This document shows, in pieces, positions 5,661 to 39,600 of a DNA stretch of 64,000 bases. The translations under genes were made by a program, and so were the position numbers. Position 1 is the stretch's first letter. Every line of letters begins with the position of its first letter. Below the pieces are notes generated by a model that had not been told where the DNA came from, searched no databases, and saw nothing but the letters and a program-made list of their open reading frames with translations. This DNA comes from Tribonema minus (taxonomy: Eukaryota; Sar; Xanthophyceae; Tribonematales; Tribonemataceae). The stretch lies in NCBI GenBank assembly GCA_017506865.1, contig JAFCMP010000268.1:1-64000 (forward strand). The letters are read 5' to 3'.

Positions 5661-7050
5661 AAGGTGTGGCAGCGCCATGAAATGGAGGGTGGGGGCTGCT
5701 TGTCTGGCGCGCCTAGCATGTTTCACCAGCCATGGTGCATCTGGCGCGCCGCAGCAGCACCTGCCACATTTCAGCCGCACATTTGGAGCCCCTTATTACA
5801 CAGCACCAGCAGGCCAGAGGAGCATTGCGTTCGAGCTCGCGGCATCGGCAAGGACATGGAAAGCTTTGCAGTCCGCCTCTCAAGCAGCACGAGCAGCTAC
5901 TTCCCTCCCCTCACCCCACCCAAGGATACTATCTCCGGGCCTTTTGGCACCGTTGATTGTCATACCAATTGCTCTTCGAGCTGATCCATGGCTGAAGCAG
6001 AAGGAGTGGGGCTCATGCAGCTGTGCGCAGCTGCTGCAGACTACGCCTGTTTGGCCGTCGCCAGAACTCGCGCCTTCTCCGCCATGTGCCGACCATTGGC
6101 AACCTGCGCTTGAAGTTTGCCACCAAGGACAATCCCGGGGCTTCACGGCACCCTGGATTGTTGACCCTACTCCTATGGAGTGTTGTTCGTGTGGCGGCAA
6201 ACCGCAGCTTCTGCTGGCACTTCTGGCCCTGCCTGCTGCATCGGCGACTGTGGCCATCGGACCTGCGCTGCCTCCAGCTGGTCCAGCACTTGCCGCCGTA
6301 CACCGCATTTGCTGCCCCTGGGGCAGTGGCAGTGGGCCAGCACCTCACATCTGGACACTATCTTGGGACCTAGCGGTACCCTTGATTGTTGTCACACACA
6401 CTCTTTCAGAGTCTTGTCCGTGGGGAGGGTTAGCGATGCGGCAACGGTGCAGGCAGGTGGCGGCTTCGCCTGCTTGGTGGCCGACGCCAACGCAGCGACC
6501 GAGTGACACGCCTGCTGCATGCTGCGCCAAGATCATGAACGCGAACACCAATACCTGCAACCACACCTTGTTGAACGTTGAAGACCGGAGCCTCTCCGCC
6601 GCCATCCCTCAGGCTGCCGCCGGCGATGGCGCACGCCTTCAAGTGTGCGTCCAGGTGTTGTCGACACATGTGCCATGCACGTCACGGTGTCTCGGTACCT
6701 GTACGATGTCGATGTCGTACAGGTACCGAGACACGTGCATGGCACATGTGTCGACAACACCTGGACGCACACAAGTTCAACCCACAACCGAAACAAGGAC
6801 ACTATCTTGGGGCCTCGCGGCACCCTTGATTGTTAGTCATACAACTCTGCGGAGTGTTTTCCAAGGCATGTGGTTAAAGAGCGGCGCCTGCACATGTGCG
6901 CGGCGACGGGGCAGGCGGCGGCAGCTGCTTGGCGGGAGCGGCGCGGAGGAGCAGGAGCAGGAGCAGCAGGAGGAAGGAGTTCACAGCAGGGGTTCCAGTG
7001 TGCGGCCGGGGACACCGGGGGGGGGCAACACTAGCAAATAGAAGGGCGGG
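5660..7050 (+). repeat. Degenerate repeat block with a 454-codon open frame (5677-7041)
   Basis: Four related stretches occur at about 5927-5985, 6125-6185, 6350-6415 and 6798-6860. They share a core close to CACTATCTTGGGGCC followed by a CACCCTTGATTGTT-like segment. All four are in the same plus-strand frame and give peptides of the form ...(A/V)PLIV..., which is why a 454-codon frame stays open. The frame starts at ATG 5677. Its composition (Ala, Pro, Cys, Trp) is not that of a known domain, and it runs through a long hairpin. I see DNA repeats with a chance or relict ORF, though a repetitive protein is not excluded. Confidence 0.45.
6645..6770. repeat. Long near-perfect inverted repeat (hairpin), arms about 55-60 bp
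   Basis: The left arm (about 6645-6708) and right arm (about 6714-6770) are reverse complements over almost their full length, around the centre GATGTCGATGTC. The only large difference is 6 extra bases in the left arm at 6681-6689 (GTCACGGTG against GTG in the other arm). The arms contain GTCGTACAGGTACCGAGA and TGTCGACAACACCTGGACGC, words that recur as degraded tandem copies at 16275-16525. This suggests a mobile foldback-type element. Confidence 0.9.
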
Positions 7051-7074
7051 TTTTCGTAGATATGCTTGCTTGAG

Positions 7075-7560
7075 TGACAGCATCAGCCTTTGCAGCACCA
7101 GTGCCTGGCACTTAGTGATCCATGACCATTGTCCTCAGTTCTGGGCGCTGCTACCAGTAGCCCAGGCCTGCACAAAGCTGTTAACGGTTGGGACCATTTT
7201 GGCAGAGACACGGGAGGCCTCAAAGTGGGTCTGGTCGTGTAGAGGCAGAAGCTTAAGTTAGGCACTTTGGTGCAGCATGATAGTGGGGACCAATCAGGGT
7301 TTGGGTGGGGTTTGTTGGGGTTGGGTCGGACTCTTCGTAGCAACAGCATTGATACCTTTAGCACCAGTGCCTGGTGCCCAGTGATCATTTTGCCTAGAGG
7401 CGTGATTCAGACGTGTCAGCATGGTCCTCAGTTCTGGGCGCTGTCAAAGGCGAGCCAGGCCTGCATAAATCTTTTCCCAGACGGGACAAGTGTGCCTCGC
7501 GGCTGGGCAACCCTAAGTAGGGTTTGGTTATGGGGTGTTGGTGGTAGTGTGAAGAGGGGG
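7075..7560. repeat. Diverged direct duplication, unit about 265 bp
   Basis: The stretch beginning near 7080 (GCACCAGTGCCTGGCAC... GTCCTCAGTTCTGGGCGCTG) is repeated near 7355 (GCACCAGTGCCTGGTGCC... GTCCTCAGTTCTGGGCGCTG). Shared blocks continue for about 200 bp (CCAGGCCTGCA, GGGAC, GCCTC). No coding pattern is shared by both copies. Confidence 0.7.
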
Positions 7561-8395
7561 AAGCCTGTTTGCATATGAGTCTCTCTTCGGAGAAGAAATG
7601 TTGCATTGAGTGCACATCCAAAGAGAGGGCTTTTCGCGCCCCTTGCGAAGCGAAATCAATACAAGTACATTACTCTGCTATCAAGACAAGGGAAAAGCTC
7701 CGTGCCAGATCACATGGCCCCAGTTGAGTATGCTTTGCGCTGCACCAACATGCAGAAAACAGCAAGTGATGCAGGTATACACACCAGCAGAGGCCAGAGG
7801 CAAGATAAAATGAACATGCATGAATGCATGCCATGCACCACAGGCTATGATGATTTCTGATTTAATCAAAGTTTAGGTGCAGTGCCCGGACTCTTATGGC
7901 AGCTAGGACACTGCTGTTTGCCAGCTGCGTAATACGGTACTCATAGGCTGCATTTGGTACAAGGTCCAGAAATCTGTGTGCAGGCGTAATTCAGGTGGAG
8001 TTTTAAAAACCGAACAGCCACCCTCGCTGGCTTTCGCATGCTGACAAGCTGCCATACGCTGGATCTGGACACAACTCAAAGCCAGTATGAGTGCCAGAAG
8101 GCCCCCATGTCCTCTGTTAAAGTGGACTGGGGGACCGGCGGACCGTCCAGACGCCACGTTTGCAATACCAAAAAACGGAATGGGTTCCGGAAGAATATAC
8201 GCGACGGCGCAACACGCGCGCAGATGCCAACTGCTTGATTCGGTCTGGGCCCGGGCATCGTACCACAACAAGAGCCACCGGCAGATGGGTACTCATTATG
8301 CGGCTTCCGTCCAGGCACCCCTGATAATAGTATGTGCAGATGAAGAAGGTATCTGGCACTGCTCCAGGACCTTCCTCCTCGCACCACACTGACTA
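7561..8395. other. Intergenic, downstream of the sulfatase gene
   Basis: No convincing coding region or structured element. It lies between the repeat block and the stop codon of the minus-strand sulfatase, so it should hold that gene's 3' UTR and polyadenylation site. I could not identify a signal. Confidence 0.4.
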
Positions 8396-11300: not shown

Positions 11301-14300
11301 TGTGACGGTGCAATATGCAACATGACCGCTGCAACATTCCCGAGGCTGCTGGCAGTCGAGGATGAGAGCCTCTGAGGGGCTTACGAGCTGAGCAGCGCCG
11401 TGCTCTCTTAGGTCTGCTGTTAGTGAGGTCATGCAGAGTCATATGATCATATGACTGGCTACAGTTATGCAGTGCTGCTGGGGTGGGGGAGGACGCGAAG
11501 GTCGAGCACCACACCGGCACCTTGACGTCGTCTTGGGCTTTTGTGCCATTCGTGCAGGAGTTGTATGGACGGCTGGGCAAGCAGACAAGACTCTTTGTCA
11601 AGGAGTTGGCAATGCACTCAGCACTGTGCTCAGGGGGGGGGAAGGCAGATGTGTTGCAGATCCTCATTGAGCGAGCTGACTATGTCGCTGGCGCGGGAGT
11701 TGGCGAAGCGCATCATGGCGTACACACGAGGAGCGCGAATGCGGGGCTGTGTTGCATCGCCGGTATCCAAGCTCCTAGGGCGCAGCGCAGACTAGGCTGC
11801 TGCGTTGACGCAAACTTCTCGATTGCATAGGCAACCCGGCCTCCCTTGGGCCTTTATAGATGCAAGTTTTTACGTGCAGGGTCACAGCATATTCTGCAGA
11901 TAGTTCTGGGCCTCCCCACATTCTCTGGGTCTTTCCATGTTGCTCTCCAGAGCTCATTTCCTTCTCAGGGCATGCTTTGCTTGCCCATGGCATCTACCTT
12001 AATTCACTCCACGCTCTCAGCAGCTCGACTCTCGGCAGCCTTGTCTCTCTGCCATGCCTATGGGGTGTCCCTGACGGTCACTTCCTCACTCCAACACTGT
12101 GTGATACACAACAGACAGTGTGTCTGTCATGGCGCCTTGTCCCGCGGCGAGGGCGCCACGCTGCGTGCGGCACCGCGCGACCCAACTGTTGATCGCTATG
12201 GGGGCTCAGCAGCAATGGAGTGTGTTCGCTGCAGCTACAGGGTGGTGTGTATTGTAGACACAGAAGTGGTGTAGGCGCAGAAGCGGGTTTCTACTTGTAT
12301 GCTTCCTCCTCCAAGGACCGTCAACGCTCCTAACCATTGGTGATTAGAATAAGTGAGGAGACAGCACAACAGCACAAGTCACTTACTTGGGCATTGGTGC
12401 ACATCACACTTCACACTGTTAACAATTGACTGTCAGAAAGGGGGATCAGCAGGCTGGGGCGGAAGGAAGGGGGGGGGGCTGTTAAACTGTCGTAGCCCGT
12501 AGTAGAAGCAGAGCCAACTGCAGCAGCAGAACATGTTCAAAAAAACAAATGGTGTGTCAATCAAGACGCCTTGCCACGGCGAGGCAGACCGCCTGTGTAC
12601 GATACAGCAACACCCTCACCGTTGATCTCTTGGGGGCCCCAGCAAATGGGGATATTTACAGCAGCAACATAATGATTGTGTAGACGCTGCATCGGTCAAC
12701 GCTTCTTTTACCTCCTCGAGTGACACTCAATCAGTATGCCCGTTATAATCAATCGGTGCACCTCAGTACAGTCCAGGTGTTGCTTTTGGTATGTAGAAAA
12801 CAACCAGACACTGCTAGACTACGTCAAAGCCTTCGAAAGCCACTTACCAAGTACGACATTGGGCCGCCGTTGTCAGACACGACGACAATGAGAGTGTTGT
12901 CCCACATCCCTGTGTCCTTGAGGGTCTGGACCAGCCGGCCAACCCTCCTGAGGCGACAACAAGGTAGCAGCGTTGCAAACATGTGCAAACGTCAAAGCAC
13001 GTCAAGGGTTACCAGCAGGGGCAACGACACCATCGTATGCGCAGCGACACAACTGCGGCAACCCTCAACCAGGACTCCGTCAACATTCGACTTCAGTTTC
13101 TTGACAGGGCTACTACCGGCCTATGGCGGACTTCGGAAGTGCCAGGGGCAATGGGAACAAGCTGTATTACTAGCGGCATAAGCATCATGATGTGAGATTT
13201 GATGCACAATCTTGAGCTTTCTAGTCTGCAGCTCACCACACCGCCGCACACCAGCCCCGGACCTCGTTGAAATGCAGCGTCATGCTTGCGTAAATTGCTG
13301 TTGCAGCGGCAAACGCCCATCTAAGCATGCAACTTGACTGGTTGCTGCGCCTGTATACCACTGGCAACAGTGTAACTTCAAGTTGGACCATTTGCTGAAT
13401 GACCTGGCCCTAACCCTATTCCTAACCCTCGTTATCATAACCCTTTGCGGCCGCATTACACTGGTACATAACAGCCTACCATACTAATAAGTTGTCCTGA
13501 TCAAGCCAAGCTCAACCACGGGTGGCCATTCACTTTCGTCAGTGGTGCCCCAGCACTGCCGAGCGGAATCACTGACAGTTTCTACTCCAATATCGCACTT
13601 CACTACTGTAACATACCTCGAACTGCAAAGGTAGTCATCGGCACTCATAGCCAACACCTGTTGCGGCAGCAGCGCTGTACGTAGAGTTCTGGCAATCAAT
13701 CGAGGAAGCGTGTGATCTTAAGACGAGCTCATTCGTCACCAATGTCAACTGTTGTGCGCAGTGTTGCCTGAGCAAAGCCAGTGCATACTTCTACTTCAAT
13801 TAACAATTTTCAAAAAGCAACTCACTGCCTGACGCAATTGAGCCGTCAGCACCCACATGTCAATATCCTTCACTGCAGCGCTGTATTTTTGGCGGCTAGT
13901 GTTGTCCGTGATGAAGCTGAACTCGTCCATCAAGTCGTTCACAGGCGCCAAGGGCGCATGCACAGCGTGCGTCGCCCACACCAAGAACAGCGGCTGGTCC
14001 TGGTCGTGGAATTGTATTGTTTGGGAGATGCGGGCTTCAAAGAGCTCGTCCTCGTACTGGCAGCCATTCTGGGTAGCGGAGGTGCATCGCTTGGGCGGCG
14101 TGTAGTTGACGGCAGGGCCATCGTCTTCCCAGAGGTCTTTCAAGCTGTATTTACTGCCACACATATTGCCACCAGTGTACGTCCACTGGTCGTTTCCAGC
14201 GTCAAGATATGCCAGGGACCTGCTGTATCCACGTGCTGCGTGAAGGAGGGGAGCCGCACGGAAGCAGAAACCTAGCATTAATGTAATCATTTCTTTACAG

Positions 14301-17300
14301 TCTGCACAGTCGACACAATGCCACTGTAATCAATCATGTCTTTGGACCCTAAATCCGCCAAGTGCTGGGTGACTCATTGTGAAGCGACCAACGTCCGGCT
14401 TTTCATTATTTTTGTCTATGCCCAGCTTGAGGCCACTGGCAGCAGCAGCATGGTTTGGCTATAGTACACTTGTAGGCCAGGCAGTTGTGGTAGGGTTAAA
14501 TCAGGGGCACTGGCATGTGCGAGTAAGCTGCGCTTGGCTAGTGCAGCGCACGGAGGAGCAGGGGCAGATGCTTTGCAAGTGCGCGATGACTCGCAGTTAC
14601 TCAACCCAAAAGCTTTGTGCATACATGCAGTGCAAATAAATAGTCCATAGTACTACCAATATCTTTCATAGTTGTTGCTGAGCCTCGTTGAATTGCCGCG
14701 TGTGCCAGAACACAAAATTCAAGCTATAGATTGTCGCCTAGGGTCACCGGTTGAAATCACTGCAAGCTTTCACAGCAACATTCTGTTGTTGTGGGATCAT
14801 GATGTCACGTGATGCTTTGCCAGTGTAGCTCATGCGTCAGTGCACATGAGATTAAGCATTGTGAACGCGGACTGCATGTAAACCACGGCTCTGCGGCAGC
14901 CGCTTTCATAAAAGGGTGGCCTGAACCCTCATTTCAACCTCAACCTCCAGCTTTAAATTAGTAATAGTGTCACCTTCCACAGTGCCCAAAGTGGACAGTC
15001 GGCGGCATCCGTGTTGCGCGACTCAGAGCGCTATGTGTGGGTGCAACATACTTTATCCTCGAACGAAGTTCGCAGCAGGGTCCCTGGCGTTGCCGAGCAA
15101 CGTGCAAATCTAGGCTGCGCGTGCGTGCGTGTTTGTGTCGGTACAGCGAGCCCAACTTTGTTTCAAATTGTTTGCTTGGTTTTGGAAAAAAAAAGTGTCC
15201 CGGGCAACGTCAAGCTTGCAAGAACGGATCTCATTGCGAGGCTGGCGCTGCTACTAGGTCACGGTGGACTTATGGACTTGATTACTTACGAATTCTTGAA
15301 GGCTTTGGCGGCAGTCACTGTGCCAGCAGTTGCACTCCCTCCCTGTCATGTGCCGTACGACCATGTGAAGCGCATCCGAAGCTTTCAGCTTTGGCAAAAA
15401 TGGCGAGGCCTCCTTCAAATTGCCCGGAGCTACTAGGCTGCCCTCAGGGCTACTGCCCCTAGTAGTACCTCACTTGATCTGCTGGTGACCGCGTCTAAAG
15501 TTACTGTAACAGTTACGGCCAGTGTGGTCGACCGCACGGTGGCGCACCTGACGGCGGGTCCGACGGTCTACCGCAGCATTGAGCCATGAACGTACACAGT
15601 GTCAGCTAGTGAGCCAACTCTGGAAGCATAAAGGGCTCAGGTAAGGCTGCTGAGCAAATGTTCGTGGCACTGCTCAAGGACGCCGAGAGCTTGCGCAAGG
15701 CCAAGCGGGTGCGTGCTGATGTTAAGTGTATTGAGCTGAGAGGCAACAGCGGGACCAATTCTTTGTGGTGGGGCAAGATTGTGAGAAAACCAAGTCCACG
15801 CCAAGTGCCACTGCTGCAGCAAGCACAACTCGGCCGTCAGTCCGGCCAAATTGATCACAGAGCACCCCCAAGTAATCAACGCGCTGCCAGTGCAAGTGCA
15901 TGACAGACGATGCTGCCCTATCCGATGTCCAGCTTGAATAAGTGTGTCTTTGACCTTGCGCTCAGTCTGCTTCACTACTGTGTAACAGCAGCAGAGTCTG
16001 ACGTTCATCATCCGATTTGAAGCGCTTGGCAATGCTCTCTTCTTTCTTACCAACTGCAGCTCACTGACACTGTGGCACTGTCAGGCTGCTGCTGGACATG
16101 TAGTATCATCGTTCAGGTACTTGGGATTGTGAAATAGCCCCAACCCCGGTGCCTGAGTGCATGTGCACGATATTTACGGCATTTGCTTTTGATGATTACG
16201 GTGTACTTACATTACAAATACAACTAACGTCCTAAATTGGGGATGCCAAGGATTGACTTACAGTATGACTCTAATGTCGTAAAGGTACCGAGATGTCATG
16301 TCGTACAGCCTGAGGTACCGAGATGCGTTATGTCAACAACAACTGGGACGCTATAGCCTTCAAGGTAACAATATTGTACAAGTACCGAGATGTGTTGTAT
16401 TGACAACAGTAGTGTCGTACACATACAACACTAGTGTCGTACAGGTACCAAGATGCATTGTATCAACAAGTTGAACTTTCATTGAACTCCTGGGTTGTAC
16501 AGGTACCGAGATGCGTAGTATCGACAACACTGTGGTACTTGCTTGGGAGTACAAGTGCACCATGGAATATCTGCAAGCAGCTTAAGGTTGCCCTGAGCTG
16601 CAGCAGCTGTATCATCATCTGCATGTCAATGACCTGCCTCCAATATTTGTTCAATTATTTTCATCTGAAGATGTCACAGGTTGCACGCATATTCGTCACC
16701 TGCATGGACACACGCAGACTGATCAGTGCTGCAACGATGTTTGCAAGCTGCTGATTGTACTTGTGCATCAACACTCTGACTTGATACATCTGACTTGATA
16801 CATCTACAGTATTGTGTGCAATGCATTGCAGTGTTTATCACGCACATATGTGCGCAGGAGGATCGTCGCGCTGCAACAGTTGTTCTATTGGCAGCGTGAC
16901 AATCATTCACATGACCTAATGTGACAGTGAGCTGAAGGGGCGTAATCTGGGGTATGAACAGCAGACTGAGCCTGAGCTAAAGTGTGAATGACTCAGAGGC
17001 ACGACTGTCACAGCGCTGGAGTACCTACTCTAATAGTTGTCATGGTGTGCATGTCTGTCACCATAGCACGCATGAGGAGCACACATCATGATGCAGGATG
17101 ACATGTACTGCTGACAGCTGACAGCGCGTGCGATCATTTACACTCCAGTGATCACTAGTGACCAGCAATTTGAAACTAATAGTGCTACTACTAGTAGCAC
17201 AGCTAGTAGTAGCCTACTAATAGGCCTACAAGTAGCACTACTAGTAGTAGGCCAAACTTAAAGTTACTAATAGGCTACGTTCTTGTCTATAATCAAGGAC

Positions 17301-20300
17301 ACTGGACGGCTTTTTTGTTTCTGTGCAAAAAGGGGGGGGTGGATGTCCTTTTTGCGCAGCTAATTAAAAGGGGTGGACGCATTTTAAGAAGAGCACAAAG
17401 ATTGACATCAATGCACTGCGTTCTGCTTCAGGGATGAATCTCTCTCGAGAGCGCCGCAAAAAAGTGTTTCGCCCCTCGCCAGTTTTGTCAGGGTCCGCGC
17501 TTCAAAGTGCCAAAGTGCCGCTACTAGGTATCCACAGAACAGAGGTTAAAGCTGGTAAACAGCGCCTATTAGGCTTCAAGCCAGTCACGCAGCAAAGTAC
17601 AGCAGCCGCCTGGCCCAGCTCCAGCGCCACGAGCAAGTTCAGCTTTGCTCTGAACACGGCGTGAACATAGTAATTGGACTGTGTGGCACTGCGGCACATA
17701 AAGAGGGGTGAACATCTTATTGTTGAAGCAATTAAATACGGGGTGGACATCTTTTTTTATGCAGCAATCAAAAGGGTGTCCTATGTTTTGATTCTGGCGT
17801 TAAAACCAACAACAAAAACGTCCAGACTGAGTGTCCTTCATTATAGACAAGACGGTACTAGTACTACTAGTAGTAGTCCTTGGGACAATGTCATCTGATT
17901 TAGAACTTGTGTATTGCACGCTACTGCATGTTCTATGCGTCCATGTGCGCTTGTATGACTGCACGGTAGCCGCATGTGAGCAGTGAAGATACCACACTCA
18001 GTCTGCACGGTTGAACGGATTTTCAATTGCGGCGCCAACTTGAAGTGCTGCAGCACTGACTGGTCACTCAGTCTGCACCGTCCACATGCCACTGCATGTA
18101 CCAAAGCTGCGTGCTTGCAGATTCTGAACCAAATTGGGTATGCCGCCCAATGCCATGTCAACGATCAATTAGTGACATTTTAATTGAGCCCCTGGGCCAG
18201 CCTACTGTTACAGTAGTGTTAGTAGCCTAAGGCTGTCATTTGACTGTAGTGAGGCAACGCTAGACATGATGGAGCAGTAAATGAAGTAGGATTTGCATTG
18301 CGAATGCCTTCTTGTGTGCTACAATCAGACACGACTTTAACCTGACATGGCACAGCTTCGTCTACTTCTATCTGTTTAGCCATGCTTGCATATCAGGGTG
18401 ATATTGCACTTGGGGAGCGTGCTCCGGTCCACCTCCCACAGTACATCGCAGTGGGCATTACCCGGCTTTGCATCAAGTCAAGGTTGAGACCTCACACGCT
18501 TTTACCCTCTGTGGTAGGCACACCACCACAACACAGAATCTGATCTGCATTTCACTGTTTCCGTCGGCACCTCTGCTGCACGCAACCTGAGGTGGCTGGG
18601 GCTGATTAACCTTCTGCACCACTAGCTGTGCCATCTACTGCCAGTGGCATCCTCAAGGGGCCACTTACAGCACTCGTTGGGTCCAGGGGCTTCCAAACTA
18701 GCCACTGTGACACACGGAGTTCCGGGTGGTCAGCAGCTGTGAACAGCAACTGTTACAGCAGAGTTTTTGGGATTTCAGCAGCTGGGGCGCGCTTCCGTAA
18801 GGCGCCCTTCGGCTCTCAACTAGCAGCGGCAGCAGCAGCTGCTCCAGCATACTGCCTCGTTCCTGGCGGCACGTGCTCATTGACAACTACTGTTCAGCGC
18901 ACCCATGGCGAGCTCGTACCTGACAGGCACACAATTGCCTGGAACACGGATGGCTGTGCTGCTGGGCTGGGCTGAGCGGCTGCTGGCCCAGGGGTGCCAC
19001 CGGTGGGGGAGGACGCGAAGGTCAAGCACCACACAGGCACCTTGACGTCATCTCAGGCCTCTGTGCCATTCGTGCAGGAGTTGTATAGACGGCTGGGCAA
19101 GTGGACAAGACTTTTTGTCAAAACATCGGCAATGCACTCAGCACTGTGCTCAGGCTGGAGGAAGGCAAATGTATTGCGCAAGGCCGGACTTGTCAAGCCG
19201 CTTCTGAGATCCTCATTGAGCTGAGTATACTATAATCTACTTCAAGAAGTATTATAACGTGTCATTGGCGCGGGAGTTGACGGAGCTCATCATGGCGTAC
19301 ACACGCGGAGCGCAAATGCTGGGTTGTGTTGCAACGCCGGTATCCAAGCTCCTAGGGCGCAGTGCACACTTAGTCTAGCCTAAGGCTGCTGCGTTGACGC
19401 AAACTTTTCGATTGCATAGGCAACACGGCATTCCCTGGGCCTTTATGAATACAAGCCCATAGGTACTAGTAGGCTCATTCAATCAATTACAATTTTGCAT
19501 TCAATCGTTTACAATTCCGCAAGGCACAATGATTGTTATCCCTGACCCTAACCCTATAATACGTTAGTAAGTATTACCTTTCGGAATCTGGCCCTTGGAG
19601 GAAGCGCCAGCATGCCACTTGCCTACAAAGTGAGTCTTGTACCCAGCTGTCGCCAGTTTTTCTGAAGGGCCAGGGCACATTGAACAACAACAGCAGCAGC
19701 GTTGTCTTGAATTGAGTCTGAGGCTGTCAGTGAGTTTAAATGTTGGAAACTACTAGCAGCAAAGTGCAAAGTAAATGCTTGTTGTGGCATTGCTTGCAGG
19801 CCGAGGTTGCCACAGCACCGTGACCCTCAGGCTGTCCCGCCGGCGGACTCCCGCCGGCCTGCAGATTCATGAACCTCATCCAGCCTGAGCAGCTGCAGCA
19901 GCAGCTGCAGGTTTCAAACAAAATGATATTTATGAAACAGGCTGAGCCTCAGGCTCTAAGACTTGCACTGAGTGTCACTGCGGTCAGGACCTCAGAGTCT
20001 GTCGCTGAGTCAGGCTGACACTGCCACTGGCACTACCACGCTAACTCAATGAGAGTCTGAATCAAAGCACTGCCAGCTTCAGGGGCGGTGAGCATGTCAT
20101 TGGTACTACTAGTAGGCCGGCGATACACGGTGATCACGATCAGCAGTCACTGTGGCGAGTCCATCATGGCCGTCGACTGCAGCTGTTGTCAATTATAATA
20201 ATTATAGTAACCTCAGTCTGAGCTGAGCCTGCTGGACAACCTGTCAGTGACCCTGTCAGCATCAAGGTTTCCGTCAGCGTGAAGGGTCAAAGTTTGAACT

Positions 20301-25635: not shown

Positions 25636-28600
25636 GTTGGGTTCTGAACAGGTTGAAGCGTAGGGGGGGAAGTCGACGCCAGGACTCTCTCTGGAAACCA
25701 ATCTCCGAGCAGCAGCAGCTGAGTGCTGCCGTACCGCCTTGTACTCGCGAAAACCTTTGGCGGCGGCGGCAGGCGGCGGTTTGGGTTTTGGGGCCCCGTG
25801 GTGCGTCATGTCATCGTGTCGCGCCAAGATTCGATATCATTGCTGGCTGTGCTCTGGAACGCATTATGATCATGTTGGCTGCCTGCCTGACTGACTGACT
25901 GGCTGGCTGCCGGGCTGATCCGAGTCGCCTTGGACCTTGAAAAGTGTCGACAACGGGCAGCGGCAGCGGCGCCCTGAAACTTCGACTGCGACCTCTCGGC
26001 ATCACCGTGACTCAAATCAAAAGAGGCTGCGCGCACGACGTGAGCACGACACGCAGCAGATGCACGCGCCTGTTGAGCACAGGTGTTAGGCGCTACCTAC
26101 GAGTCTGATTGGCACGCTAGCGTCGGCCTGCAAGCTAGCGTGCACACAATCGTCTGTTGAGCACACAATTTTCGATTGAGCACAATTGAGCACAAAATCG
26201 TCGATTGAGCAGAAGGCGTCGATTGAGCATACAAGCGTCTGAGTACACAAAGTGTCTGTGTTTGCCGTCTGTATCGCAGCTGCATACCACCATGACGTGC
26301 TCTCACACGCAAGCTAGCTAACATACTGGCATTTCAACAGGCAAGCTCAAAACAGCTCACTGAGGAACACTACGAGCCGAGAGGTCACAGTCGAAGTTTC
26401 GGGGCGCTGCCGCCGCGACGCAGCAGTCGTATATCGCCCGCCCGCTGTGCACTTTGAGGCAAAGCGGGGGCAGCCGCTGCTGTACTTGGAGGCGGCGCAC
26501 TGGAGGGCGCACTCAGTCTGGAAGCCAGGCCTTCGCGCAGATTGAATTTCCAGTTTCCAGGTGAATCAACATCCATTGGACGTACGTTCGTTCATTGACA
26601 ACTCCCTAACGGCTCTAATACTAACATGAACATGTTGCGGCATGGTATTACAAGCCTTTAAGTAAGTGAGCATGGTCACCTTGCCGAGCAGCATTTACAG
26701 CCTGCCAGCCAGCGCAGCTTCAAGTTTTATGAATGTATACTTTTTTGACTTTTTGTTTTTTGTGTGATTTATTACTGTACTGTGTTGATCTGACCACCAC
26801 TATTGGCGATATATATTATCCCCAAGAACTATACTATCCCAAGAAATACTGTACTTTACTCTACTGCATGTTGATCTGACAACCACTCTTGGCGATATAT
26901 ATTATCCCAAGAACCCCAACCCCAAGAACCACAACTACTGGCACGCATGACTGCAGTATGCTGGTGCGCACATTTGATTCTTCCAGCAATGTAGCGCAGC
27001 GCGCACAGAGATTGCCAGCTGTTTGAATCAGTATTATATGTAGCTGGCAAGAGCTGCTCGGAGACTCAGTGTTCAAAAAAAAATCCACAATGCAGCGGCC
27101 CTCCGCGCAGCCCTGCGGCGGGGCCAGAGTCAGGCCATGCAATCGGCAATGCCAATACTGCGCCACTCAGTCTGACTGGCAACGGCAAATGCAGATAGCA
27201 CGCGCCGTGGACCTTTAAGTTAGCTTCTCGCCATGACATGCAGTGAATAAAAGAATGACAATAGAAAAAACAATACTAATACTATTTGGCCGGGGAAGTT
27301 CAACTTCCCCTAAGTTCAGTTGCAACTGGGATGAACTTAGGGCTACTGGAAACTAAATACACGAAATCACTCCTGGGTGCTCATGGACAAGTTGAACATT
27401 TGCACAATCCGCGCAATGTCATTCAACATAATTCATAGTCACTTGGTGTTTCAATTGGGATTCATTTTGTTGAGCTTCTCAAGTGTTGCTGAATAAACAA
27501 CTGTTACATTCAATCACTCACCCAGTCTGGCTACTCCAGTTGACATTCCATTAGCACATTTAGCACATGCAATAACTGCAGACTCAGAGGACAGCTGCCA
27601 GCTGGTGAGCCCAATATTCATACTGCAAACTGTCAGTGAATCAGCTGCCAATTGCTAACACTACTAGTTGAATAACCCTATAGGATATATTAGTAGGCTG
27701 TAGACTGTCAGTGAATCAAATCCTAACCCTCACCCTCAGGCTAACTCATCTACCGTAAATCAGGTCATGGGGGACTCTGAAGTTGGATTTTGGCATCTAC
27801 TCAAACCTTCGCATTAAGCTCAGTCACGGTGACATCAGGCCCGGGCTTCAAGTCACTGTCACATAATTTAATAAGTTAAGGTTCATTCATTCAATGAATG
27901 AACCTTAGGGTTAGGGTTAGAGTGAGATTTTTCTTTTCGAAACTTACTAAGTTATAATTATAGTAAGTTTTGAACATGAACTATCTGATATTATGTGTCA
28001 CATGGGCATGAAACAAGGGGTGACTTCCAGTTGTCAAAACTTTTCAAAGTTGAAGCCCAGCCTAATTGATTTGCTCACCTGTAATTGGTGCTCCAGTGGT
28101 ATCCACAAGATACTGGGATAGTATACTATTAGCCTAACAGTCAGGCGGGCAGACCGAATTAACTCATTATGATACGTTGGCTGCGGCAGCCCGCTGGAGC
28201 AGGCCGACCGAGTGCATTGTCACCGACTGCAAGCACCCGGTCCGATGGAGTGCCTGGGAGTAGGACCTCGAGAAGTAGTACTCCATCGAGTAGACTACAG
28301 TCACTGTGATACTCGGCCCCATGATGCCGTCTTGAAGGTAAAAAAAAAATAGGCGATGCCTGGCTGGATTTGGGATCTTCAACTCGAGCGATTATTTCAA
28401 TTTGCGGAGGCCTCGGGTTACATTCAATTTTTTTTAGATGCAATTAAGTATTACTAACTGTTGTTGAACCCAGCTTGCATTATGCCAGATATTGTTAAAA
28501 TTTCCTTGCCTTTTTTCACATTAAATTTTGCTGCCTGCCAGCGAAAATGAGACAGCGACACGTATATTATATGCTCTTGAAATATTAAGTAGACTGAGTT

Positions 28601-30623
28601 TCAGTAACCTGAATCAGACAGTCACAGTGACTGACAGATGCCTACTAGGCTGGCAAATCGAACCAGCCTGAGTAAGCAGCATCAAGTTTTAACCCTGGGG
28701 CCCGACAGCCTGAGGTTTGACTTGCACTGGCAGCATAACATATTGGAGCACAGGCAATAGGTTTGAATTGCAAAAAGCGGGACCCGCTTCAAAACGGGAC
28801 CCCCACAGGTGTAAACTCTTCCATTGGCAATGGCATGACTTCGTCTCAAGTGTGATAATATATGGGTATAACAGTCACAGACGCTCGTGCAATGAAATGA
28901 ATAAAATTCAAAAATGTAGCAAAACGATTCTTTTTCTATGCTCAGACACTAGAGATATCCCATGTTTTGACTTGAACATGAACTGTGACTGTGAACTTTA
29001 AAATTTATTGCCGATAAAGTGCGACAACTACTGCTATCATAGTCAACAAGTTAATTATTTGGTATTATTGCTCCGACCATTTGTTCATCATTCATTAGGC
29101 GGTCTTCTTAATTCAAAGTTATATGCGTTATTCTGTTGCTGTTGGGTTAGCAACCCTTATTCTTCTACCAGTAATACCTACCATCCTGAAATGAGGTAGC
29201 GTTCGAGAGGAGCTACGTTCCCCTCAGGCTCTCAGACTCGCAGACATCGCAAGGTTTGAATTGCGAAAAACGGGACCTGATTCCAAAACGGGACCCACAG
29301 GGGTGAACTCTGCAAATGGACTTCTCTCAATTGTGATGACGTGCCACTGGGTGTAATAGTCATGCCTAGAAATAACCAATTACAAAACAGATTTTTAATT
29401 CTACGCTCAGGATCTTGAAATATACCATGTTGAACTTACACTTGAACATTAACCTAAATTCAACTACAAATTGAAGTTTGAAAGGTGCTCAGTGCTCTTC
29501 ATGGTATCCTAGTTAGCTTCAGCACTGGTCCCTTCACCTAATAACTTCAACATCATGTTGAAAATCAGCAGCGAACGCTGGCAAGGTTTAACCAGACTTC
29601 GCCAAAATGCTGCCCATGGGTCCCGTTTTTACCAATTAAGGTTCAGAATCCGTTTTGCGCAATTTAATCCTCGCAGTCGCGTTGATACAAATTGCTACGG
29701 CTCTAAAGCAGCTGCTGCATATATACAGACTGAGTGACACTGCTAAGCTTTGCGTATATCATACCCAGGAGACCTCATACTGGCTAGCGTACACACACTG
29801 AGTGACACTGTTAAGCTTTGCATAAATCATAGTATTACCCAGGAGACCTTTAAGCTTTGCGTAAAGCACAGAATTACCCAGGAGACCTCTTACTGGCTAG
29901 CTCACACTGTGGCACATGAAGCTTGATGTTGAACTTCAACCGGAACTTGAACGCAAGTAGCAGATTTCAACTCCAAATTGAACTTCTTGAAGGTTAGTAA
30001 ATGTGCTCGGTGCTCATCACGGAATCCAAGCCAACTTCACCACTGATGCTTTCACTTTGTAACCTCAACTTATGTTCCAAATATTATTGCAATGAACGCT
30101 GCCATGGCAGGATTCATTGACAACTAGAGCTTTGGCCAATTTGCAAGTGATTTGATGCTGCCAGTGGGTCCCGTTTTCCCAACAATTCACTTACAGGTCC
30201 CGTTCTTGCTGTTCAGACCTTGCGATCGACTTTGATACAGCAACTAATAAATGATATTATTTGAATTACACAGTATACTATAGTAACTATGATAATCATA
30301 CATCAACACGTACAACGCGGCATCATGCTTATCATCATGGTCAGTTGCACTCATGATTGCAATCTGGCAGCAGCAGCCGTTAACAGATTGAATTGAATTT
30401 TTTGTTTTTGCTTCTGCAGACTGAGTGCTGTACCGTGTGAAATAGACTGGATTCTCCCGTCACGGTACGGGATACCATATGCGGCCAATCGGCTGCGGCA
30501 GCATGAACCTGAAGGGGTTACTAACCCTACTCCTCATTCAACTTGACGTTGCAAGAATCAACGCTGTCCTGGTTGCGGATCATCATGGTAATGAGTCCAG
30601 AAAGACCAATACTACTACTAGTC
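25636..30623. other. Repeat-rich intergenic region between divergent genes
   Basis: Separates the minus-strand sulfatase start from the plus-strand Pro/Thr-repeat gene start, so both promoters should lie here. Contents: a CTGACTGACTGACTGG stretch near 25886-25910; a direct duplication of about 75 bp (26785-26850 and 26870-26925, TTGGCGATATATATTATCCC); and several short inverted-repeat elements between 28.7 and 30.3 kb. A 63-codon minus-strand ORF (26576-26385, ATG start, Ala/Pro/Ser-rich, locally GC-rich) could be a small gene or an exon. Its support is weak. The sulfatase frame is open upstream of the chosen start, with an in-frame ATG near 25809. Confidence 0.5.
28759..29670. mobile_element. 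Two adjacent copies of the TTTGAATTGCGAAAAACGGG element
   Basis: A first left end at 28759 (AGGTTTGAATTGCAAAAAGC) is followed by homologous interior but no clear right end. A second, complete-looking copy spans 29252-29670: left end AGGTTTGAATTGCGAAAAAC, right end on the minus strand GGATTAAATTGCGCAAAACG. Both interiors share GGTGTAAACTC/GGTGAACTC, GTGTGAT/TTGTGAT and a downstream CTCAG...GATAT block. A related right end without a visible left end lies at 30194-30220. Confidence 0.6.
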
Positions 30624-33600
30624 ATGGAGCGCAAGGCAATGGGCAGCCTGGTGCCACTGCGGCATCTGCTTCTGTTGCTGGCGATCATCCTGGCTACTGG
30701 TCCAGGAGTGCGGACCCGCACGCATTTCCAAGACGCCTTGCTGCTACGCAAGAGCCCACTGCAGGAGCAGCGGTAGGTAAGGTCAGTCTAGTAGTTCTGA
30801 GAACATCACGCGTGCAGGGCTAGCACACCACACTGTACCAATGCAGCCTGAGAGCGCAGGCTCTTGGAGGCAAACGGAGGCAGCCAAAATTGACACACAC
30901 ACTTTGTGGTGACTCAACCGGATATTATGAAGAAACTTTAAGATGGTCACCTGCCGTGGCAGCCGTACCGGTTGTGAAACCAGTGGCTGTTGGACTCATG
31001 AATTCGCGAATGCCTTACTAATTAACGTTATAGCTATAATAGTTGTGTGTGCACGCATGATCATCATGGCGAGGAGATACTATTAGAGCGCATGACGGGA
31101 GACCCTCGGAACTTGAAGTTTGTGATGCTCATGTGCTCCGGCACACCACATTTAATTTCAATTTATATACTTCTACCTTCAACTTTATGGTGCTCCTGCC
31201 AGCCTGAGGGCTTGCTGTACCACTGTGACAGTGACTGTCACAGTGACTGAGCTTAAAAGCTTGTGCACTGCGGCACGCTTAGCAGCCTGAGGGTATACTA
31301 TACTTAGTCTAGTAGCCGTATCCTTCTGGCCTTAGGCTACTAGGGGTGCCAGGACACCGGGCCCACACTCATCACATACTTGAGTCACTCGGTCTTCATA
31401 TACTGCAGTAACTACAGTAACTATGAGCCGTGTTTCAAAGTTAACAAAACGGTTCAAATTAGTTGCTCCGGGCCACTGGCATGTACCTCACATTCCGTGT
31501 CTAGAACTCCATTGGCAAGCCCATTGACAAGTTCAGTAACTGCACAGTGCCACTGATGACTGACTGCGCAACAAATTGTACTACTTGCTAATAGTCTAGT
31601 AGCTGCAGCTACAGTAACTGTCACAGTCACTGTGTTAGCAAAGCAGAGAGAGTTGGCTATTAATGATATTTGGAACATAATGATTCTGTGCTGCAGCACA
31701 GTTTCTTGATGATCATCGTGATGCAAGTTGGTATCAGCAACATCATGATGCGCTCCCTCGGCGAGTCGCCATGAATTCGGGTCATCGATGATCATGTTGG
31801 GCCCCAAACCTTCCAAATTGAATTTGAAACCGCTGGCAGCCCCACTGGCATCAGATGATCTGCTGTTAGCAGCAGCGGGGAAGTTGAGAATTCATTTGTG
31901 GGGCGAGAGGTAGCTCAGAGGGACTGGGAGGCTATGAGTCAGCCGCCAGACTTGACGTTAATTTTTTCGCCAACGGGCTCAAGCCTTACAAGTAGGCTTG
32001 ATGGGCGACAACTTTGTGCCGCCTGTCCAACTCACACAGCTCACCCTTGGTCGAAGGGAATAACACTGCAGCCAACTGTCACACCCAGTCTGAGAGCCAC
32101 GCCTTCAAAAATGCCAAGTTGAACACGCATTGCCAAGCCCACAGGCAACTTGCTTGAAGCCAGTGTCGGACAACCAGAACACCAAGTACAGTCAGGCTGA
32201 CCAGAAGGCCAACGACTCGGAGTATGTGTTGCCGCACCACCATGCCAATCGCTACTAGTAGTCCCGGGGCCCACTGCTCAGGCATTTCGGTGACCCCACT
32301 GTAACCATCCGATTCGTCATTACTGTCCCAAAGTGCCTGGCTCTGAGCCAGTGCCATGCAGCAAACGGATCAGCAATATGTTCAGCTGTTACAGCAATGA
32401 TTGTATTATGATTAACATCAACATGACATTGTCATTGAGTCTGAGATTCATTCGAAGTTACTGCTAGTCAGTAGCTGTTACAGTAACAGTTTCAAACTGG
32501 CTCCCAAGCCTTCTCTTACTATTAGTAAGTAGACTCAGTCTGGCTGCCAAAGCTGAGCTGGTGCACTGTCACAGGGGCAACACTGTCAGTTGCAGTAACC
32601 TAAAGCAAACTCTTACAGTTATTGTAGCTGCTTGTGCCACAGTGGTGGTGGTCACGGTCACCGTGACGGTGCTGCAGCAGCTGCAGTGCTACTGGCGCGG
32701 TGCTGCCGCCGCCGCCGCCGCTGCTGATCATCACTGATGGCATGATCATGATGCCGTGTTCCAAGTCAGCCTGAGGCTGGTAATCATGCCATTGTGCGCA
32801 TGAATGTCATGATGGAGAAACTTTGAATGCGCTCTTGTATATTATATGTAAAATATATGTGTATTTATGATATTATACATATGTGCTAGCAGCTGGAATG
32901 TACAGTTTGCAACGAGTCGGCCATCTTGCCATTCTGAATCATGTACTTCAAAAAACGTACTATTCGAATCATGAGGCCACGGTGACCATCTGATAAACGC
33001 CGTGAAGTCTAATGCGTGGTGCCACAGTCACACGGTGTCACAGTGACTCTGAGAGTTGCTTGTCAATGTTGTTCTGTAGCCTGAGTATGGCGATTGGGAT
33101 GTCGGTGAGGGCCCAATTCATTGTCAACTTGAAATTGAACACACAGCTGCCAGCAAATCTGCTAGGGTTACTTAGTCTAGTAGCTTCAACTTCGACTAGT
33201 CTAAGAAAGGCAAGTTGCAAGAGCCGACCAATAAAATAGACCTGGAGATTGACGGGCGGAAAGTGTCCAGCCTGAGACGCAGATGAGATGGCGGCGTAAA
33301 ATTTCTGTGTCACGCATCGAGGTACGTATGGACTTGTATTCTACAAAGGCCCAAGGGAGGCCGGGTTGCCTATGCAAATCGAAAAGCTTGCGTCAACGCA
33401 GCAGCCTAGGCTGCGCTGTGCCCTAGGAGCTTGAATATCGCAACGAGGTACTACTAGTAGTACATAGTGTGCAATTAATTTTGGGCTCCGGGTGATCCGT
33501 CACCCAGACTGTCCTGTTACTGGCAGTGACTCGGAGTGCGTACTCATGCCACATTGGTGACCACAGTGACTGGCAGCGCTTAGCCTACTAGGTTATGTCG

Positions 33601-36600
33601 TTCAATTGATGCTTCTGAATTATTATGGAGTCACTGCCAGTGTGGTCGAACTTATCAAGCGATGATCACTACCAACATCAGCCACTTCAAGGTGAAGGTC
33701 AAGTTCAACTTGGTCAAAGCTCGCTGCTCAATTGAGTAGTAGCTTGAGGCTAGGACTTGTAAGGTATACCTGTTGCGGTCTACTGGCAGAGCAAACGATG
33801 CACATAGTATGACGTTATGTCGAACTTTTCATGCCGTGCAAGCGCCGACGCTCAAAATCGAAGTGTGCCCGGGCCTGATTACAGAGTCTGCATCTGCCAG
33901 ACTGAGTGCCGCAGTGCACCACTTGACCGCCGTTTCTAAGTTGACAACTTGCGACTGCAGTAGGCCTGTGCCAGTTGGTACGTTAACGGCAGGCATGCTG
34001 CTCAGAGTCCGACTGCCCCTGTTACGATGCACGGTGACCCCGGCGCAGCTGTCTCAAATAATATGCAGCCATGGCACTTTAACTCATGAGCATCTTAATG
34101 TTTATGCCGACTCGCATCCATCATCGCTGCCCTAGTCAGTCTGCAGCCAAGGCGTCGGTGACCGCATGGAGCCTTACACCTTGAAGTTCAAGTTGATAGT
34201 GCATGTTTGCATGTCTGCATGGAATAAACTGTTGCGAAGCAGGCCAACTGGCATGCCACATCGCCTATACCTTTAACTTAGCCATTCTGCCTGATCAGGC
34301 CTTGCTCACTGACAGTCAGGCTGAACGCCTGAACGCAGAGCAGCGCGTGTACGACTCAGTCCACATTGCAACACACACCACACTGCGCATGCAAGGGCAA
34401 ACAGATACAAGTACTCAAAGCAAAAACGCCTTGTTGGATGCGCTGTACGACGCATCGCAGCCCACACAGACTCCCACAGCTAAACCTACAACACCAAGGC
34501 CGACCAGGAAGCCCACTCGAACACCGACGGCCACCCGTACTGGACAGCCGACTTCAACCCCCCCAGCCAAGCCGAGCGCGCAGCCAACTTCTGAGGTCAG
34601 TGACCGCCTACTGACACAAAGCTGCCTACTACTAGAGTCTGCATCACTGGCAGTGACGCCCTACTGACAGAGGCTGCATCTGCACCACTGATGCCTTCAC
34701 ACCATTTGCCAAGCAACTTGGACTTCATTGAATTTGAAACTGCTGTCCAATGCCACTGGCAGTTGATGCATGAACTTAACCTCGGGCATGGTTCTCCGCC
34801 CCTGTAACCATCATGCATGAAGCCCTGCGCAGCTGTCTCAAATTCTGGCACAGTGACACGAGCGTCTTCATGTTCATGCCGACTCGCATCCATCATCGCT
34901 GCCCTAGGCAGTCTGCTGCAGCTTCGCCAACTTGAAGGTGTTGGTGCCTCACAACTTGGTAGTGCATGCCATCAGTGACCAGCAGTGCATGCCGTTGGCA
35001 AAAACCGTTGCGGAGCAGGCCGACTGGCATGCCATCGCCTATACCCGTAGGTTAGCAATGATTCTGCCTTCAGGCTTTGCTCAGTCAGGCTGAGCGCCGG
35101 AACGCAGAGCAGCGCGTGTCCACCTTGTAACTTATAACACACACCACACTGCGCACTGCACGCAAGCGGTAAACAGATACACATGTACTCAACTTGAAGC
35201 GAAATACACCTTGTTGGATGCGCTCTATGACGCATCGCAGCCCACACAGACTCCCACAGTAAAGCCTACAACACCAAGGCCGACCAGGAAGCCCACTCGA
35301 ACACCCACGGCCACTTCTACTGGACAGCCGACTTCATTTCCCACAGCCAAGCCAAGCGCGCAGCCAACTTCTGAGGTCAGTGACAGCCTACTGACACTAA
35401 GCTGTATATAGTCAATGACATGTTAATGCTGACTTGCATCCATCATTGCCGCCCTAGTCAGTCTGCTGCAGCTTCGCCAAGGTGTTGGTGCCTCACAACT
35501 TGGTTGTGCATGACTGCATGCCATTGGCAAAAACCGTTGCGGAGCAGACCAACTGGCATGCCATCACCCATACCTTCAAATTAGCTACACCTTCAAGTTG
35601 GTGATTCTGACTCCGGGCTTTGGTCAGTCAGTCTGGGCTGAACGCCGGAACGCAGAGCAGCGCGTGTCCACCTTGCAACACACACCACACTGCGCACGCA
35701 AACTGTAAACAGATACACATGTACTCAAACTTGAAGCGAAATACACCTTGTCGGATGCGCTGTACGACGCATCGCAGCCCACACAGACTCCCACAGTAAA
35801 GCCTACAACACCAAGGCCGACCAGGAAGCCCACTCGAAAACCCACGGCCACTTCTACTGGACAGCCGACTTCATTTCCCACAGCCAAGCCGAGCGCGCAG
35901 CCAACTTCTGAGGTCAGTGACAGCCTACTGACACCAAGCTGTATATAGTCAATGACATGTTCATGCTGACTTGCATCCATCATTGCCGCCCTAGTCAGTC
36001 TGCTGCAGCTTCGCCAAGGCGTTGGTGCCTCACAACTTGGTTGTGCATGACTGCATGCCATTGGCAAAAACCGTTGCGGAGCAGACCAACTGGCATGCCA
36101 TCACCCATACCTTCAAATTAGCTACACCTTCAAGTTGGTGATTCTGACTCTGGGCTTTGGTCAGTCAGTCTGGGCTGAACGCCGGAACGCAGAGCAGCGC
36201 GTGTCCACCTTGCAACACACACCATACTGCGCACGCAAACTGTAAACAGATACACATGTACTCAAACTTGAAGCGAAATACACCTTGTCGGATGCGCTGT
36301 ACGACGCATCGCAGCCCACACAGACTCCCACAGTAAAGCCTACAACACCAAGGCCGACCAGGAAGCCCACTCGAAAACCCACGGCCACTTCTACTGGACA
36401 GCCGACTTCATTTCCCACAGCCAAGCCGAGCGCGCAGCCAACTTCTGAGGTCAGTGACAGCCTACTGACACCAAGCTGTATATAGTCAATGACATGTTCA
36501 TGCTGACTTGCATCCATCATTGCCGCCCTAGTCAGTCTGCTGCAGCTTCGCCAAGGCGTTGGTGCCTCACAACTTGGTTGTGCATGACTGCATGCCATTG

Positions 36601-39600
36601 GCAAAAACCGTTGCGGAGCAGACCAACTGGCATGCCATCACCCATACCTTCAAATTAGCTACACCTTCAAGTTGGTGATTCTGACTCCGGGCTTTGGTCA
36701 GTCAGTCTGGGCTGAACGCCGGAACGCAGAGCAGCGCGTGTCCACCTTGCAACACACACCACACTGCGCACGCAAACTGTAAACAGATACACATGTACTC
36801 AAACTTGAAGTGAAATACACCTTGTCGGATGCGCTGTACGACGCATCGCAGCCCACACAGACTCCCACAGTAAAGCCTACAACACCAAGGCCGACCAGGA
36901 AGCCCACTCGAAAACCCACGGCCACTTCTACTGGACAGCCGACTTCATTTCCCACAGCCAAGCCGAGCGCGCAGCCAACTTCTGAGGTCAGTGACAGCCT
37001 ACTGACACCAAGCTGTATATAGTTAATGACATGTTCATGCTGACTTGCATCCATCATTGCCGCCCTAGTCAGTCTGCTGCAGCTTCGCCAAGGCGTTGGT
37101 GCCTCACAACTTGGTTGTGCATGACTGCATGCCATTGGCAAAAACCGTTGCGGAGCAGACCAACTGGCATGCCATCACCCATACCTTCAAATTAGCTACA
37201 CCTTCAAGTTGGTGATTCTGACTCTGGGCTTTGGTCAGTCAGTCTGGGCTGAACGCCGGAACGCAGAGCAGCGCGTGTCCACCTTGCAACACACACCACA
37301 CTGCGCATGCAAACTGTAAACAGATACACATGTACTCAAACTTGAAGCGAAATACACCTTGTCGGATGCGCTGTACGACGCATCGCAGCCCACACAGACT
37401 CCCACAGTAAAGCCTACAACACCAAGGCCGACCAGGAAGCCCACTCGAAAACCTACGGCCACTTCTACTGGACAGCCGACTTCATTTCCCACAGCCAAGC
37501 CGAGCGCGCAGCCAACTTCTGAGGTCAGTGACAGCCTACTGACACCAAGCTGTATATAGTTAATGACATGTTCATGCTGACTTGCATCCATCATTGCCGC
37601 CCTAGTCAGTCTGCTGCAGCTTCGCCAAGGCGTTGGTGCCTCACAACTTGGTTGTGCATGACTGCATGCCATTGGCAAAAACCGTTGCGGAGCAGACCAA
37701 CTGGCATGCCATCACCCATACCTTCAAATTAGCTACACCTTCAAGTTGGTGATTCTGACTCTGGGCTTTGGTCAGTCAGTCTGGGCTGAACGCCGGAACG
37801 CAGAGCAGCGCGTGTCCACCTTGCAACACACACCACACTGCGCATGCAAACTGTAAACAGATACACATGTACTCAAACTTGAAGCGAAATACACCTTGTC
37901 GGATGCGCTGTACGACGCATCGCAGCCCACACAGACTCCCACAGTAAAGCCTACAACACCAAGGCCGACCAGGAAGCCCACTCGAAAACCTACGGCCACT
38001 TCTACTGGACAGCCGACTTCATTTCCCACAGCCAAGCCGAGCGCGCAGCCAACTTCTGAGGTCAGTGACAGCCTACTGACACCAAGCTGTATATAGTCAA
38101 TGACATGTTCATGCTGACTTGCATCCATCATTGCCGCCCTAGTCAGTCTGCTGCAGCTTTGCCAAGGCGTTGGTTCTTCACAACTTGGTTGTGCATGATT
38201 GCATGCCATTGGCAAAAACCGTTGCGGAGCAGGCCAACTGGCATGCCATCACCCATACCTCTAAATTAGCCATTCTGCCTTGAAGTTCAGGCTTTGCTCA
38301 GTCAGGCTGAACGCCTGAACGTAGTCTAAGAGTAGCGCGTGTCCACCTGGCAAAACACACTACACTGTGCATGCAAGAGGTAAACAGATATTCAACGATT
38401 ATCTTGGCAGTCTGGCACAAATAGAGTCAAAACCAGGGACCAGCCAAGGGCCACTGAGAAGGGGAGCGAGTTCCACGTGTCAGGTCCACCACTCAGGTAG
38501 CATGACAACAAGACTTAGGCAGTCTCCTGCTGATAAGGGAAGCAGTCACTGTGGTAGCTGACGACACTTGGGCATTGCAAGTCTGCTGCCACGTTAACAT
38601 CCTCCCACCCACCCGTACCTGGGCATTTTGTGCGGCAATTCATTGCGCAGTTGCTGCCATGCATTCCCCGTGAAGATGATGTTCCCCCACTGCGCATGCC
38701 ATGTGAATTCAGCTGCCCTGTTATTTTGTGTGCTCCACTAAGATGACATGATGATGTCCCACAATGCATGCATGCATGTACAGCATCGACTCTGTGTGCC
38801 AGCCTGGCACACAACTGAGACATGGCATCCTGTCGATCAGCCCAGTAGGCTAGGTACATGTAGTATTTAAAGTGGAGTGCACCTCGTCGCATGCGCATTG
38901 CAGCCAACACAAACTCCTACGACCAAGCCTGCGACAGCAAGGCACTCATCCTGTCAGCAATTGTTAACCCAATCAATATAAAATAACATGCATGGTCAAG
39001 TTAACGCTGATTTCGACAGTGCACAGTGACTGTAATAATGCAGCAGCCACTGCAGAAAGCAATTGCTACAACTAGTATCTCTCGCAGGGTTCAGCTGCTG
39101 AAGCTGGCTGCTTCACTAGAGATGACTCATAGCGTCCACTCAGTCTGGCAGTATTGCTTGCAGCGCCTGCTTCTCAACAACTTCTGAATCACTTGTACCT
39201 GCATCAATAATGCCCTGGCACTGAACATGTGCACTTACTGAGGACCAGAGCTGGCGCCTAAATTCAGACCTTGGCGCTGACTCAGAGTTTATGTTTCGAG
39301 CCCTGGCTAAACTAGTTTAGCCATGGCGCAACTGGCGCAACTCTCATCAAGGCTTCTATGTACATATATGTACTCCTAGTGCTTCTACAGGCACTTTCAA
39401 GGCCCATACAGCTTACACAAGAGCTAGGGTTAGGGTTTTGGTCATGACTAACCCTACTTGAAATACTAACCCTACTAGTAGGCAAGACTCGCGAGTAAGC
39501 GCGAGTAATGAGCAATACTTTTTGTGAGTAAACTTGTGAGTATCGCCAGTTCAACGGTTGCGTCACGAGTCACATGAGCCGGCAGCTGGTGCAACTAACG

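Follow-up and report, generated by a model that had tools for sequence, protein, structure and literature searches.

In V(D)J coding joints (RAG/Transib), hairpins on the flanks are opened off-centre, which gives palindromic P-nucleotide additions. Footprints of CACTA-type elements, for example Jordan of Volvox, carry short extra bases between the duplicated target bases after excision, the target duplications being 3 bp long. In the palindromic footprints of Ac/Ds, the central base is the complement of the one flanking the transposon end, and microhomology is often involved in joining; Ac/Ds excision in Candida gave 28 footprint forms in 128 revertants (excerpt of PMC5873905). For piggyBac, a 4-bp duplication, hairpin intermediates and complementary 4-nt donor ends are described (excerpt of PMC7351741). 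Here, a recurrent palindromic 6-bp insertion, called scar in the following, was analyzed in a stretch of 64,000 nt from Tribonema minus (contig JAFCMP010000268.1, positions 1 to 64,000; the window) and in further samples of the same genome. Judged from the sequence, the scars probably (about 60%) stem from cuts with a 4-bp stagger, after which the flanks closed into hairpins and were repaired; such cuts would most likely be made when cut-and-paste elements that duplicate 4 bp of their target are excised.

The initial annotation of the window had listed nine 9-mers in which XYZ is replaced by XY, the reverse complement of XYZ, a purine and XYZ. All nine are present where they had been listed, eight of them fitting on the plus strand and one (19368-19376) on the minus strand. 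The size of 6 bp and the form were borne out, but the rule was incomplete, as it omits the base before XY. The complement of the middle base was found three places upstream of the 3-1-3 palindrome in 40% of cases, and this points to a fuller, strand-symmetric rule on a 4-base target: pXYZ becomes pXY, the reverse complement of pXYZ, and XYZ, with a net gain of 6 bp. The product is thus the 10-mer pXY-Z'Y'X'p'-XYZ, with a unit of four bases and both apex bases linked to Z and p. Eight of the nine listed cases fit this 10-mer, whereas 35728-35736 does not; its 9-mer also stands in five neighbouring 537-bp units. The middle base had been said to be always a purine, which turned out to be a bias and not a rule: it is a purine in 157 of 249 10-mers as read on the plus strand, and in 221 of 249 when each is taken in the more favourable of its two equivalent readings. 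This bias is due to the preference for C or T at the base p preceding XY.

The 9-mer was counted on both strands of positions 601-64000, overlapping matches included. The 981 matches (575 with a purine and 406 with a pyrimidine in the middle) compare with ~153 expected from 100 dinucleotide shuffles (means 76.4 + 76.4), an approximately 6-fold excess. The excess was concentrated at 14-42 kb. For the exact 10-mer, base counting predicts 6.84 occurrences in this hot region, in which 249 were found (36x). Markov models of orders 1, 3 and 5 (60 runs per order) gave expectations of 8.7, 10.6 and 31.0, with maxima of 15, 16 and 42. The signal was moderate at 0.6-14 kb (22 vs. 4.5-8.1 expected) and weak at 42-64 kb (16 vs. 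7.4-9.4 expected). Collapsing the scars at 14-42 kb took out 238 inserts, or 1,428 of 28,000 bases, compared to 6 in the shuffled control. Between 7,042 and 41,538 there is no stop-to-stop frame of 200 codons.

Related forms were examined in a grammar scan with units of 2 to 8 bases and 0 to 3 bases lost per junction, written as (unit, loss, loss). Besides the main form, no grammar with more than 20 counts exceeded 17x. The closest, (5,1,3) and (5,3,1), reached 113 and 103 counts (15-17x) and have seven consecutive positions in common with the rule. Lower values were found for (3,1,1) with 2.3x, (4,2,2) with 1.1x, and (4,0,0) and (5,1,1) with 4 vs. 0.43 each. Forms with a 3-base unit ranged between 1.2x and 2.5x, by which a 3-bp unit was ruled out, and the version of the same grammar with an 8-base unit occurred 0 times in 28 kb. 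Some grammars with longer units showed high ratios at counts of only 1 to 7, with similar values in the rest of the window. In a grid of spacer lengths, the combination of 1 nt and 1 nt alone stood out (619 vs. 99-271 in the other 35 cells). Whichever base stands at Z, the first inserted base was complementary to it (173/303, 114/268, 271/400 and 139/267), which rules out a fixed junction base derived from an element. The preferred target is RC-CNNG-GY, symmetric around its centre, and the second position of the flank carries the preferred base in 73% of the scars in the window.

The scars are genuine insertions or deletions between repeat copies. This was determined from all-against-all alignments of the window and the loci L001-L046, from which nine redundant or masked loci were dropped; near-identical loci such as L040-L043 were kept, so that the indel places are not all independent events. 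Among 540 indel places, 48 had a length of 6 bp, while lengths of 4, 5 and 7 bp accounted for 19, 33 and 12 places. Of the 48, 21 fit the 10-mer and eight more the 9-mer only, while 19 fit neither. In alignments of at least 90% identity, nine of ten six-base indels fit, although two events, each counted three times, make up six of these nine. Some of the rule indels separate copies that are 95-98% identical (L016/L020, L008/L033 and the window at 34.9 kb), i.e., the scar is present in one and absent from the other of two near-identical copies.

Two of the listed cases could be followed in individual repeats. For the transposon arm near 17824, removal of CAGTCT restored the local match to the partner arm, with AAGGACACT-GGACG in both, as had been claimed. 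For the nested pair at 19368-19385, which had been reported to reduce exactly to the sibling sequence near 33.3 kb, collapse restored length and phase of the sibling, but substitutions remain and the match is not exact. An element with inverted repeats, its arms being of the GTCTATAAT type, lies within the hot region at approximately 17276-17857.

The scars also occur elsewhere in the genome. In 19 readable 10-kb samples, between 1 and 29 exact 10-mers were counted per sample (2.4 by base counting), and a clearly rule-specific excess was found in some of them only (L004 with 29, L020 with 28 and L007 with 16). In L031 and L034, low-GC stretches that lack long open frames contained up to 13 and 14 scars per 2 kb, close to the mean density of 17 exact 10-mers per 2 kb in the hot region. 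Scars are not restricted to DNA of non-coding appearance, as some related stretches of L020, L008, L033 and L016 that have open frames of ~590-670 codons contained 5-12 exact ones per 2 kb. An insertion of 6 bp keeps the reading frame.

Two 14-mers with the preferred flanks were found in 47 and 37 copies genome-wide, and their backward controls in 1 and 0 copies. This contrast is overstated because the frames themselves are biased: with the inner four bases left free, the same frames occurred 860 and 1,390 times, compared to 75 and 125 times for their backward controls. A fairer measure is how often such a frame encloses the 4-mer of the rule (47/860 and 37/1,390), which is 14- and 7-fold the unbiased 1/256. 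Among 100 listed places for each frame (counted by hand), the rule's 4-mer was not the commonest in either. For the first frame, CTTG was found 3 times, compared to GGCC (6), GTTC (5), GTTA (5) and GGGC (5), and for the second frame, TTGA was found 5 times, compared to AGTG (7), ACTT (6) and GCTC (5). The other inner 4-mers in both frames probably come from coding repeats and multi-copy elements. On contig C476 (12.6 kb), one sequence is present in both orientations (loci L041 and L042), which is either a large palindrome or an assembly artefact.

The form of the scar is consistent with the following excision pathway. An element flanked on both sides by pXYZ would be cut with a 1-nt offset, as in Ac/hAT excision. 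The left flank would then close into the hairpin pXY-Z'-Y'X'p' and the right flank, on the bottom strand, into Z'Y'X'-p-XYZ, the apex base of each hairpin being the complement of the base adjoining the cut. After nicking of the hairpins 2-3 nt from the apex, the 3' ends Y'X' and XY would anneal; they would always be complementary because both derive from the same duplication. Fill-in and ligation of the annealed ends would yield exactly the 10-mer. Since a nick at 2 nt and a nick at 3 nt lead to the same product, the dominance of one form would be explained. The annealing step is needed in this scheme because Ac/Ds footprints in Candida are heterogeneous and one form is dominant here. Hairpin opening with P-nucleotides had been among the causes considered in the initial annotation, and this idea was upheld. 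A very short inserting element, also suggested there, is unneeded, as the target can supply every inserted base.

The resemblance to Ac/Ds (hAT) comprises palindromes centred on an apex complement, hairpin opening near the apex and joining by microhomology (excerpt of PMC5873905 and the Coen hairpin model cited there). If the 4-base target is read as the duplication, the central base of each palindrome here is complementary to the base adjoining the element end. The form includes the 2-base overlap Y'X', which would stem from annealing; the spacer grid is unique at 1/1. In contrast to Ac/Ds, one product dominates, hundreds of scars lie in 28 kb, both half-palindromes are fused through the 2-base overlap, and the unit is 4 bp long instead of the 8-bp target duplication usual for hAT. 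It had been remarked that no standard transposon footprint follows such a rule. Each half is in fact a standard palindrome of the Ac/hAT type (excerpt of PMC5873905), whereas among the matches listed no published account of the rule, or of both halves fused on a 4-bp target, was found. The flush hairpins of RAG/Transib would retain both apex bases, but the corresponding (4,0,0) form is not the main class here. The 3-bp duplication of CACTA elements differs from the 4-base unit, forms with a 3-base unit reaching 1.2-2.5x. Excision of piggyBac, whose target is TTAA, forms hairpins on the element and is followed by seamless repair (excerpt of PMC7351741).

For the identification of a source element, the window and the sampled DNA were searched for inverted repeats with target duplications, and a clear 4-bp case was found only in a family of fold-back miniature inverted-repeat transposable elements (MITEs) with TGTGCGTCC ends; large-insertion polymorphisms revealed no other clear family with a 4-bp duplication. 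This MITE, the only clear family of this kind in the material searched, has an exact direct 4-bp duplication in 13 of 16 elements with both ends seen. Twelve different 4-mers are duplicated (CAAG, GCTG, CAGA, ATAC, TTAA, GAAG, GGAC, ACGC, GATG, CATC, CCGC and CGGT), GGAC being common to the copies in L031 and L034. The copies without an exact direct duplication are those in L033 (inverted flank), the first element of L036 (near match) and L066 (none). At L033 1501-1644, compared with L020 at ~5285, the MITE is flanked by the inverted sequences GGTGC/GCACC, and the surrounding DNA is more than 98% identical to the empty copy. The window copy stands as CTT-CAAG-element-CAAG-TTC opposite the empty site CTTC in L014, and its position coincides exactly with the inner 4-mer of a variant 6-bp insertion, CTT-CAAG-TTC (the 'same' variant). 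Longer elements carry the same 61-bp ends with unrelated interiors, in which no transposase profile matched. 4-bp duplications were also in excess for four other terminal 6-mers (GACTTG, GCGATG, AGCAGT and CTAGTA), which were rejected as tandem arrays or short chance arms, the latter with 8-12 of 20 bases matching. The profiles for CACTA (PF02992) and KDZ gave no match here; as the control genomes were silent too, absence is not shown by this. The genome contains at least 131 matches to the hAT dimer domain, 32 of them at an identical 42.5 bits and 24 of these in open frames of 412 codons, which suggests recent spread. The contig of one MITE with the duplication CCGC (L039 1501-1592 on contig C301, identical in L040 on C284) also contains a match to the hAT dimer domain, at a distance of ~2.5 kb.

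Several observations weigh against excision of elements as the source of the scars. Hundreds of scars in the hot 28 kb without a known parent are an odd ratio, and no element with the target preference of the scars was found in the window and the sampled DNA, which are a small part of the genome. The target duplications of hAT elements are normally 8 bp long, and the hAT family whose end was seen has an ordinary TAGGGTTGGC end. In the MITE flanks, the preferred second-position base is present in 10 of 24 half-sites (12 sites, tallied by hand), compared to the 73% given above, and in two pairs of MITE and empty site the exact scar was absent at the empty copy. In several GC-rich samples, the enrichment of control grammars equals that of the rule; in L002, for example, a control gave 36 vs. 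4.9 and the rule 14 vs. 2.4. The rule excess in such samples is therefore attributed to simple repeats. Finally, one form dominates here, unlike the 28 forms in 128 revertants for Ac/Ds in Candida (excerpt of PMC5873905).

The scars could have arisen with no insertion ever having taken place, if a domesticated transposase or another nuclease cut RC-CNNG-GY with a 4-nt stagger and the ends were partly filled, folded, opened and rejoined. The target-derived insert without any remnant of element ends, the very high density (249 in 28 kb), the symmetric target preference and the missing parent element in the searched DNA agree with this. No enzyme has been identified, however, an offset of 1 nt at the apex is the mark of hAT transposases, and we know of no simple breaks that close into hairpins, so that we regard this origin as rather unlikely. 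A standing mutational process, in which a transposase-like enzyme repeatedly makes cuts 4 bp apart in ordinary DNA at RC-CNNG-GY, leaves no element and lets hairpin repair add exactly 6 bp each time, is possible but on balance doubtful; if true, it would expand non-coding DNA. That the TGTGCGTCC MITE family and a partner enzyme made the scars is quite improbable: its 4-bp duplications and the position of the window copy speak for it, but the flank preference, the two empty sites and the three copies lacking an exact direct duplication do not.

Template switching during replication, or snap-back synthesis, where short sequences are inverted, the latter also raised in the initial annotation, produces short local inverted copies and has been described for yeast and great apes; neither a fixed length nor a target preference is to be expected from it. 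A fixed 4-base unit with one base lost per junction and a symmetric target preference are not predicted by it, the inverted copies do not vary in length as they should, and only grammars with a 4-base unit are strongly enriched with many counts. We consider this origin very unlikely. Chance or a composition artefact of low-complexity DNA is hardly credible: simple repeats and codon bias do raise the counts of related patterns, both in gene-rich samples and in the frames counted across the genome, but for 14-42 kb it is rejected by the shuffles, the order-5 Markov model and the indels between paralogues.

The rate of insertion was estimated in two ways. Outside the 537-bp array, 23.6 kb contained 219 exact 10-mers. 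With these masked, 369 single-deviation 10-mers were counted there, ~243 above the expectation (8 classes of 15.8), a generous figure since the true background is somewhat above the base-count expectation. The similar numbers of intact and once-mutated scars fit steady gain and decay, which would correspond to ~9 insertions for every 100 substitutions. In direct alignments with sequence from the hot region, 24 rule insertions were counted per 2,202 substitutions (~1 per 100), the comparisons being non-independent. The rate may thus be roughly 1 to 9 per 100 substitutions, the two estimates differing. Owing to their one exact spelling, scars can be counted without knowledge of the parent element, so that old cuts would become countable. 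This would allow past cut-and-repair events to be mapped base by base in the genome, would show how hairpin ends are opened in T. minus, and would expose frame-keeping insertions of 6 bp that are otherwise taken for unremarkable indels. The coordinates of the features are listed in Table 1.

Table 1. Scars, repeats and mobile-element features in the window.
Feature	Position	Strand	Remark
Hot region	14000..42000		249 exact 10-mers; 238 removed by three collapsing rounds
Left 4-bp target duplication CAAG	6640..6643	+	
Fold-back MITE, 128 bp, ends TGTGCGTCC...GGACGCACA	6644..6771		One copy in the window
Exact scar CGTCACGGTG in one MITE arm	6680..6689	+	6 bp absent from related MITE copies
Right 4-bp target duplication CAAG	6772..6775	+	
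Exact scar CAGCCTGAGG in tandem motif	16306..16315	+	
Exact scar CAGACTGAGT in right arm of repeat	17823..17832	+	Left arm without scar
Two adjacent exact scars ACTTAGTCTA, TAGCCTAAGG	19368..19385	+	Relative to sibling repeat near 33.3 kb
Exact scar TCACTGACAG in diverged 537-bp unit	34306..34315	+	
Array of 537-bp units	34411..38390	+	Used for indel comparison
Exact scar CAACTTGAAG	34928..34937	+	Unbroken target CAAG kept in related units
9-mer fit, 10-mer misfit	35728..35736	+	
Exact scar TAGTCTAAGA	38322..38331	+	

The window starts with a CCCTAA telomere repeat (1-515), and a short interstitial TTAGGG array is located at 48224-48258.

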